This document shows, in pieces, positions 22,943 through 25,461 of a stretch of DNA of 51,504 nucleotides; position 1 is the stretch's first letter, and each line of letters opens with the position of its first letter. Made by a program: the position numbers and the translations under genes. Below the pieces are notes generated by a model. It saw only the letters and a program-made list of their open reading frames with translations. It had not been told where the DNA came from and did no database searches. Source of the DNA: Promethearchaeota archaeon (GTDB lineage: Archaea > Asgardarchaeota > Lokiarchaeia > Sigyniarchaeales > SOKP01); contig RDOA01000022.1 of assembly GCA_011364925.1 (NCBI GenBank), forward strand, positions 1-51,504, read 5' to 3'.

Positions 22943-23785
22943 ATGAATAAGAAACATTTGAAAAAGGAAATAGCTGAATTTCAAGGGACTGAGTTAACAC
23001 AAGAATATAGCAATTTAGATTTCACTATAGTACTCATTCGACCAGAACACGCCGCTAACATCGGTTCTATAGCCCGAATAATGAAGAATTTTAATTTCAA
23101 CAATCTAGTTGTATTTAATCCAGTTGAAAACGCAGAAATCATTCAAAGCCACCACACTCAAGGATTTGCCATGCATGGAAAGGATATCCTATTAAATGCT
23201 CAAATTATTGAACTCGACAATCAAAATACACACTTAAATAAGTATAAAGAATTAATGCAACAATTTGATTTAGTAATAGCGTCTACTGCAAAAGGAATGC
23301 ATTATAAAAATGTTAGAAGGTTATCGATTTTTCCTAAAGATTTACAATTTCCTATATCTGATAGCCCTGTAAAAATTGCTATAGTTTTTGGAAAAGAATC
23401 GCGTGGTCTTACAAACGAAGAAATAGAACTCGCAGACATGCTAATTAGGATTCCCTCCAGTGACGAATATCCTACATTAAACCTATCTCACGCTTGTGGA
23501 ATAATTCTCTACGAAATCTATAATAAAATTCATAAGCTTTCTTTGGGAAGAGGACCCAAACCAGTTATGTTAGCAAGTAGAAGTGATAAACAGATTCTAT
23601 ATAAAATGATTAGAGATATTGTCAATAGCTTAAAGATTCGCGCCTATACAGCAGAAAATGTTTTATTTGCTTTTAAAAACGTGTTTGAAAGAGCAGTCGT
23701 CTCTAAAAAAGAATTAAACCTTATTTTAGGAGTCTTTTCAAAGCTTAATTCCCTCTTGAAAAAAAGAAAAATATATAACGATTGA
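22943..23785 (+). CDS. TrmJ/SpoU-type RNA 2'-O-ribose methyltransferase
   Basis: The SPOUT-fold enzyme transfers a methyl group from SAM to a ribose 2'-OH in tRNA or rRNA. Motif 1, IRPEHAANIGSIARIMKNF (about 32-50), motif 2, IVFGKESRGLTNEEI, and motif 3, IPSSDEYPTLNLSHACGI, fit the TrmJ/LasT branch: the NxGS/AR and NLSxA elements are present. The C-terminal 80 residues are helical, as in TrmJ. It is 280 residues, in range. In archaea TrmJ modifies position 32 of tRNA, which is the best guess for the target. It converges with the small wHTH gene ten bases downstream. Confidence 0.9.
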   Translation: MNKKHLKKEIAEFQGTELTQEYSNLDFTIVLIRPEHAANIGSIARIMKNFNFNNLVVFNPVENAEIIQSHHTQGFAMHGKDILLNAQIIELDNQNTHLNKYKELMQQFDLVIASTAKGMHYKNVRRLSIFPKDLQFPISDSPVKIAIVFGKESRGLTNEEIELADMLIRIPSSDEYPTLNLSHACGIILYEIYNKIHKLSLGRGPKPVMLASRSDKQILYKMIRDIVNSLKIRAYTAENVLFAFKNVFERAVVSKKELNLILGVFSKLNSLLKKRKIYND

Positions 23786-24577: not shown

Positions 24578-24587
24578 TTTATATAAA
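24578..24587 (+). promoter_or_regulatory. Symmetric TATA box upstream of structured RNA candidate
   Basis: TTTATATAAA is a symmetric TATA element. Read forward, a 26-base spacing puts transcription start near 24609, just before the long inverted repeat that begins at 24617. Read in reverse it could drive the small ORF at 24357-24542. Confidence 0.5.
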
Positions 24588-24616
24588 TCAGAAGTGTTTG
24601 ATGATCTGACAATCAA

Positions 24617-24730
24617 GACTCCTGTGCCACCTTGGATTTTTGTCTTTTGGTAGCGCGATAATATAAAAATTGCGCCATGCTTATCCTATACTAATTTTGA
24701 CCATTTCGTTAGGTCATGGCGACAGGAGTC
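24617..24730 (+). ncRNA. Candidate structured RNA with three-way junction
   Basis: The 114-base segment is bounded by a long inverted repeat. GACTCCTGT (24617-24625) pairs with ACAGGAGTC (24722-24730), and GCC (24626-24628) pairs with GGC (24718-24720), leaving one bulged G. Inside are two hairpins: GCGCGAT (24653-24659) with ATTGCGC (24669-24675), and TGACC (24698-24702) with GGTCA (24712-24716). The fold is a closed three-way junction, richer in GC than its surroundings, and lies about 30 bases after a TATA box. It lacks 5S rRNA, tRNA, SRP and H/ACA hallmarks that I know. A foldback mobile element is the main alternative. The strand is inferred from the promoter. Confidence 0.5.
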
Positions 24731-24960
24731 ATCCTTATTCATAGATTAAAAATATTCAGTTAAATTTTAACCTAAGTTTAAACTTTTCGATTGAAAGTTA
24801 GGTATTGTAAGACGCAATGCCATAATTAATCATAACGCTTATTAAATCTTCGCGTTAATTTATTCTTATCAATTAAAACCCTATTACAAAAAAACTGTAT
24901 TACAATAACATTCGGCGGTATTCCTACCCACAATAAGTGAGCGTGCTTTTAAAATAAAAA
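24731..24960. other. Intergenic region, no gene recognised
   Basis: AT-rich spacer after the RNA candidate. I see only weak 4-5 bp hairpins (for example AACGC at 24835 with GCGTT at about 24853) and no ORF of note. Confidence 0.3.
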
Positions 24961-24970: not shown

Positions 24971-24996
24971 GCCTAATGTGGTATTTTTATTTAACC

Positions 24997-25461
24997 ATGT
25001 CCCAATCGTATAAAGATTTCTTAGAAAAATACAGTATTGACGATTTTAAAACGAGTTTAAAGCTTGCTGGACACACAAAAGTAGATTTCTACAACGATAT
25101 TGACAAGTTATTGAAAAGTATGAGTACAATCTTCGATAAGCTCGCAACTATTGGAACTATGAGAGGCGCTCAAGTATTAATGGCTATTGCAAAGTTATCT
25201 GGGCCAGATAGTGTGGTAAATAAGACAGATGTGAAAAATTGTCTGAATGTTGATAGATTGGAGAAAATATTACCAGCGATTGAGTATCTAGAAAAATCAA
25301 AATACATTAAGATTGAGGAAAAAACAAAAAAGTTTCATATTATCAAACTAAATGAAGAAGATTTTCCAGATTTACGAGTATTCAGGGAGATTATTCAGAA
25401 ATATTGGAAATCACCACAGGAAGAAGTAACACAAGCAAAGAAATGGAGTGAAATTAAGTGA
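24997..25461 (+). CDS. Small winged-helix-like regulator, first gene of a pair
   Basis: The chosen start at 24997 (MSQSYKDFLEKY) follows from the TATA position; an upstream ATG at 24976 would lie outside the transcript. The 154-residue protein is mainly helical. Residues about 55-130 (MRGAQVLMAIAKLSGPDSVV, then LEKILPAIEYLEKSKYIKIE and a strand) have the order of a winged-helix domain, where DRLEKILPAIEYLEKSKYI would be the recognition region and wing. It overlaps the downstream membrane-protein gene by four bases (GTGA), indicating translational coupling. It may sense through that partner. No named family. Confidence 0.65.
   Translation: MSQSYKDFLEKYSIDDFKTSLKLAGHTKVDFYNDIDKLLKSMSTIFDKLATIGTMRGAQVLMAIAKLSGPDSVVNKTDVKNCLNVDRLEKILPAIEYLEKSKYIKIEEKTKKFHIIKLNEEDFPDLRVFREIIQKYWKSPQEEVTQAKKWSEIK

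Follow-up and report, generated by a model that had tools for sequence, protein, structure and literature searches.

Comparative genomics has provided a number of orphan structured RNAs in bacteria and archaea (PMC2864571, PMC11109978). Such RNAs are conserved, intergenic and recognised by covariation, with no function assigned; the Lokiarchaeal RNA described in this work resembles them in these respects, but it matches no Rfam model and is limited to a single Lokiarchaeal family. Another point of comparison are the eukaryotic Sm-class snRNAs, for which AAUUUUUGA has been described as the Sm site and AAUUUGUCUAG as that of U7 (PMC6954390). Judged by sequence alone, the RNA is similar to Sm-class snRNAs, including U7, in having a single-stranded AUUUUUG beside stem-loops, and it differs from them in showing no homology to snRNA models, in placing the loop inside a closing helix and in lacking any context of spliceosome or histone processing. 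The Lsm proteins of archaea have U-rich RNA and sRNAs among their ligands (PMC10779274). Like the archaeal sRNAs bound by SmAP/Lsm, our RNA is, as far as its letters tell, small and intergenic, and it combines a U-rich site with a 3' tail rich in U. Its stem is freely replaced and its loop invariant, which is the reverse of a stem-recognised RNA such as Y RNA. The Y RNAs of Ro60 RNPs are, like the Lokiarchaeal RNA, about 100 nt long, with a closing stem, a pyrimidine-rich internal region and several paralogues per genome. In a typical archaeal sRNA one would expect far less conservation of sequence and structure than is found here.

The RNA element is located in the window, i.e. the whole stretch of 51,504 nucleotides that was analysed, between a SpoU-methylase gene (22943-23785, + strand) and a gene for a 161-aa hypothetical protein (24976-25461, + strand) with no match in Pfam or NCBIfam. 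The original prediction had described, at 24617-24730, a 12-bp closing helix of nine plus three pairs around two hairpins, and this fold was reproduced, with a minimum free energy of -37.4 kcal/mol on the + strand, whereas dinucleotide shuffles average -22.4 +/- 3.2 (z -4.65; none of 200 as stable). The minus strand of the element likewise folds well (z -4.5). GC content of the element match is 41%, compared with 21-36% in the surrounding DNA, as had also been claimed. The element and its flanks consist of the following parts:

24578-24587, + strand: putative TATA box TTTATATAAA, seen in the sequence; it would imply a transcript start near 24609
24616-24731, + strand: whole RNA element, covariance-model match (117 model positions)
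24617-24628, + strand: closing helix P1, 5' strand (9 + 3 pairs), from the fold; 12 of 12 P1 pairs covary in the family
24629-24631, + strand: short ACC/GGU arm closing the core loop, 5' strand, from the fold
24633-24650, + strand: nearly invariant core loop UGGAUUUUUGUCUUUUGG, with the Sm-site-like AUUUUUG at 24636-24642
24649-24651, + strand: ACC/GGU arm, 3' strand, from the fold and family pairing
24653-24675, + strand: hairpin P2, GCGCGAU (24653-24659) with AUUGCGC (24669-24675), from the fold; 6 of 6 modelled pairs covary
24676-24697, + strand: linker Y, unpaired, pyrimidine-rich in most copies and different between paralogues
24698-24716, + strand: hairpin P3, UGACC (24698-24702) with GGUCA (24712-24716), from the fold; 5 of 5 modelled pairs covary
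24718-24730, + strand: P1, 3' strand, with a bulged G at 24721, from the fold and family covariation
24731-24738, + strand: 3' flank ATCCTTAT, the window copy's form of the conserved YCYUUU tail and probable transcript end

In the window copy P1 is formed by nine continuous pairs (24617-24625/24722-24730) and three further ones (24626-24628/24718-24720) around the bulged G. The ACC/GGU arm, a third short arm, was added by the homologues, in which 95.5% of its cells are paired and two of its three pairs show two-sided change.

Plain DNA search of relatives gave matches in 60 of 97 genomes, with at most 7 per genome, while covariance model R1 matched 23 of the 24 genomes of the genus. The covariance search across Asgard genomes proposed as a check was carried out with model R2 over 228 genomes of the phylum, and in the window's Lokiarchaeal family (f1) it matched 62 of 65 genomes, the three genomes without a match being 70%, 78% and 64% complete. 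The window copy itself scores 73.9 bits with R1 (E 9.4e-17, genome), 87 bits with R2 (E 5.3e-19) and 86.7 bits with R3. In 14 genomes from sister families of the order R2 found no match at E <= 0.01, and laxer filters together with model R3 gave nothing below about E 0.2, also in the single-contig 4.4-Mb genome G066. Several candidates from outside the family were rejected: the sole other R2 match in the phylum (G144) is weak and misses the core motif, six loci (L262-L267) reach only E 0.3-1, a locus upstream of Tes in sister family f2 (L231) has no fold (z +1.2), and core-motif matches in viruses (L164-L166) are due to chance, in unrelated sequence without the structure. In an independent pattern scan of GTDB genomes all 92 of 92 named loci belonged to Lokiarchaeota/Lokiarchaeia assemblies; since these loci were retrieved by exact core sequence, invariance of the core is to be judged on the covariance-model matches, where it holds too.

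The number of copies ranges from 1 to 11 per genome, and they are dispersed and intergenic. A search for further copies, also suggested beforehand, revealed a second one in the window's genome, at C20:6100-6216, about 73% identical to the window copy; the two are less alike than orthologues from different species. The C20 copy (G000:C20:6100-6216, equal to L039:1501-1617) represents the canonical form, with an R1 score of 148 bits versus 74 for the window copy. It precedes a Tes-like radical SAM gene, with a small membrane protein in divergent orientation on its other side, at a site which is kept across several genera. Membership in a multi-copy, strongly covarying family goes beyond what could be seen from the letters of the window.

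Among 77 distinct copies, standard pairs occupy 94.2% of cells compared with 75.8% in shuffles, and two-sided changes, the compensatory changes that were to be sought in homologues, affect 25 of 26 pairs (295 cells versus 62 in shuffles). When the partners were slid by one to three columns every measure collapsed, and 91 distinct rows used earlier gave the same picture of covariation. The family alignments were fitted to the model's own structure and are biased toward it; the changes are nonetheless visible by eye. In P1, GACTCCTGC/GCAGGAGTC is swapped in other copies for GGTCCTTATC/GATAAGGACC, AGGTCCCTG/CAGGGACC or TCCTTCCA/TGGAAGGA, and genus g2 has P1 replaced entirely, while GACC/GGTC of P3 becomes GACGC/GCGTC. 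G-U cells outnumber A-C cells in the family alignment (85 vs 35), therefore the + strand is favoured. Orthologues of the main orthologous site (class A) are 83% identical within the element, and 57% in the DNA 20-140 nt downstream, which is the level of shuffled sequence. The element is thus almost certainly a structured functional RNA, and the massive compensatory change, together with varied gene contexts, some of them convergent, supports the original reading as a structured non-coding RNA with a three-way junction. The nearly invariant 18-nt loop, 25 of 26 covarying pairs and presence in 62 of 65 genomes imply an important function that annotation of Lokiarchaea has missed.

A foldback element or a small mobile element of non-autonomous kind (MITE, REP-like or IS605-type end), its fold being under selection at the DNA level, could also account for the scattering of 1-11 copies over a genome, for the perfect inverted ends GACTCCTG/CAGGAGTC that most copies have, for a few truncated ones (L104, L109) and for folding on both strands. 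We regard this as highly improbable, as copies within one genome have diverged whereas those at fixed orthologous positions stay conserved, the unpaired loop is invariant within freely covarying helices, G-U is preferred over A-C (85 to 35), and transposase or recombinase is missing among the neighbours listed. Many dispersed copies with target-site duplications were named in the original prediction as the mark of a foldback element; the copies are indeed dispersed, but they are few, several stand at orthologous positions in many species and no transposase neighbour was detected; MITE-like near-identical copies within a genome were not found, the pair in the window's genome being about 73% identical. 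No transposase or recombinase occurs among the 25 of 88 neighbour families listed, nor, at lineage-specific sites, among the 25 of 27 and 17 of 17 neighbour families listed. At the class D locus gene order differs between genomes with and without the element, and no clean insertion junction was seen.

The element had been said to fit no familiar RNA class, and this holds: none of the 4227 models of Rfam 15 gave a gathering-threshold match in the window or in 7 family-carrying loci, and matches forced up to E = 10 were at chance level, far below threshold. Two of these, snoR160 and RyfD, were rejected as below gathering. Neither ARAGORN (tRNA/tmRNA) nor the Rfam model of 5S rRNA found a match. 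As for C/D or H/ACA guide RNAs, there was no family match, only the sub-threshold snoR160 match, offset from the element, and no snRNA family model showed homology, U6 reaching only E 1.9 and 12 bits on the opposite strand. A small protein gene was rejected as well: some class A copies could be read as ATG..MTPAPPWIFVFW*, yet the copies do not share the start codon, and the MTPAPPWIFVFW frame is not kept, as the segment before the core shifts by single bases between copies (read by eye). In a partial search of the open-access literature we found no description of this RNA, which may still be published. It is near certain that the element represents a class of RNA, and we could link this class to no family already described, although RNAs that are structured and free-standing are well known in general. 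The archaeal SRP RNA model RF01857 found nothing in the 100%-complete genome G000, although control archaea match it, probably because the SRP RNA is divergent or falls into a gap of the assembly.

The claim of an own TATA box stands in part. TTTATATAAA is present at 24578-24587, and 160-nt stretches upstream of the relatives are enriched for TTTAAATA (68 vs 9 expected), at varying distances that usually lie further out than in the window; the frequency of the octamer by itself does not reach significance in the window (13 occurrences vs 10.4 expected), and neither upstream DNA nor TATA position is conserved between the window copy and its orthologues. For the window copy an own TATA box is a plausible candidate only. 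One constant TATA position was rejected, as distances range from about -33 to -140, and thus start sites differ between copies. Directly downstream of the copies the first six positions have the consensus C C Y T T T, with T at 0.82-0.87 at positions 4-6, and 75 of 115 copies have TTTT in their first 16 nt of flank (24.3 expected); the window copy has CCTT only. In the mechanism that we propose, the RNA would be transcribed from its own promoter and the U-rich tail would end the transcript.

The class A site is flanked by the small membrane protein (divergent) on one side and the Tes-like gene on the other; the latter matches Pfam Radical_SAM, and its top NCBIfam match is tetraether lipid synthase, a partial sequence scoring below cut-off. 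Wherever this gene is seen, class A lies upstream of it on the same strand, typically with 300-500 nt from element start to the ORF, so that a cis-acting leader (riboswitch or attenuator) of the downstream gene has to be considered. Such positioning upstream of one gene class was found at the class A locus only. Other copies precede unrelated or opposite-strand genes (L076, L082, L090, L096, L114, L120 and others), a U tract follows the copies (75 of 115 with TTTT, as above), and sister families have Tes genes without the RNA, all of which makes a cis-acting leader very improbable for the family; at the class A site itself a cis role may exist. The remaining sites include that of the window, one between convergent genes and many unique ones, with no consistent downstream gene; these unrelated contexts argue for a free-standing, trans-acting RNA. 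On one contig two copies (L107:3156-3277 and L107:7913-8000), in the same orientation, flank the same three genes.

The loop UGGAUUUUUGUCUUUUGG carries 1.9-2.0 bits at nearly all columns (77 distinct copies) and is unpaired except for the flanking ACC/GGU arm. It was present in all 30 of the first 30 loci, and it is unaltered where the enclosing helix wholly differs; constancy inside a replaced helix is a signature of a protein site or tertiary contact. We consider a protein-binding site the most likely role of the loop, which P1, P2 and P3 would hold out in single-stranded form. Its AUUUUUG agrees with 7 of the 9 bases of the snRNA Sm site AAUUUUUGA: in GAUUUUUGU, compared with AAUUUUUGR, AUUUUUG is identical and the flanks differ, and the segment is unpaired and followed by hairpin P2. 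The segment GAUUUUUGUCUUUU resembles the U7 site. An archaeal Sm-like protein (SmAP/Lsm) bound to AUUUUUG may tentatively be named as the leading candidate partner. U5 runs come readily in genomes of high AT content, and relatives without the RNA should have SmAP as well; both count against it. No long antisense complement of the core loop exists elsewhere in the window's genome.

Taken as a whole, the reading that we favour, and hold to be fairly probable, is that of an independently transcribed, trans-acting RNA which would form an RNP via its invariant loop. Near-universal presence within f1, the invariant loop inside replaceable helices and one copy at a conserved position across genera would also suit a housekeeping or scaffold RNA with several paralogues per genome and a partner other than SmAP, e.g. 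a lineage-specific RNP with another RNA-binding protein. Its copy number of 1-11, with many lineage-specific copies, and its absence from 14 of 14 sister-family genomes, unlike universal housekeeping RNAs, render this somewhat unlikely. It is doubtful, too, whether the Lokiarchaeal RNA is an Asgard RNA with a genuine Sm site, on which a SmAP ring would sit beside the flanking helices in a prokaryotic snRNA-like RNP with several paralogous RNAs per genome. If that were true, an snRNA-like RNP would exist in the archaeal group nearest to eukaryotes, and the Sm-site-like loop bears on Sm-ring RNPs with dedicated RNA partners in Asgard archaea, hence on the origin of eukaryotic snRNPs.

For the trans-acting RNP we further conjecture that linker Y, variable and mostly pyrimidine-rich, is free to contact other RNAs. 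Many copies have, 20-75 nt upstream of P1, a leader complementary to Y, e.g. AAATAAAATAGGG:CCCTATTTTATTT, with both sides changed in GGATCAG:CTGATCC (L148), AATATAGGG:CCCTATATT (L111), ACAAAATAGG:CCTATTTTGT (L138) and AATAGGA:TCCTATT (L099, L134). Using one representative for each of 26 upstream clusters, own leader with own Y exceeded swapped pairs in 10 of 10 random draws (z 2.7-3.4, p 0.0002-0.0048); as one cluster holds 75 copies, this is support for the pairing and not proof. Neither the window copy nor class C has the pairing. Where present, it would mask Y.

In an antisense sRNA the linker, CCCUCCUCCCCCUAU in the commonest type, would block purine-rich ribosome-binding sites, which is compatible with the favoured trans-acting RNP. 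The linker is C/U-rich, like anti-Shine-Dalgarno CCUCC, it differs between paralogues, and the leader may gate it. In the window's genome its complements are no commoner than in controls (8 vs 10 for the C20 copy; for the window copy only itself), so no antisense target is claimed, and CCUCC is missing from the window copy and several classes; antisense action on ribosome-binding sites is accordingly improbable. Pairing of the leader with the core (AAGATAAAAATTT, class A) was suggestive, with a mean z of 2.5 against Markov shuffles, but it was rejected, being near chance elsewhere and confounded by A-richness. At L039, L160 and other class A loci a block AAGATAAAAATTTA is repeated about 70-115 nt upstream of P1; it could pair with the invariant core over 13-14 bp, including G-U, and may be a promoter-proximal element or a self-masking leader, such pairing being not clearly beyond chance outside class A.

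Some copies depart from the common form. The apparently decayed L104:1606-1719 and L109:5598-5697 keep the core and have lost one P1 strand, and the related L127:5093-5241 and L163:5897-6045 carry a ~30-nt insertion in linker Y that can fold into a hairpin by itself (CUCCGUG..CACGGA). One contig has, ~5 kb away from its normal copy, a second member (L140:6924-7002) which is shorter, at 79 nt, and strongly diverged, with a CTGAATTTTTGTCTTTTGG core. In genus g2 (L172-L195), with up to 10 copies per genome that differ in their P1 sequences, pairing between the equivalent leader and the 3' tail lengthens P1 to at least 20 pairs, and P3 is often reduced.
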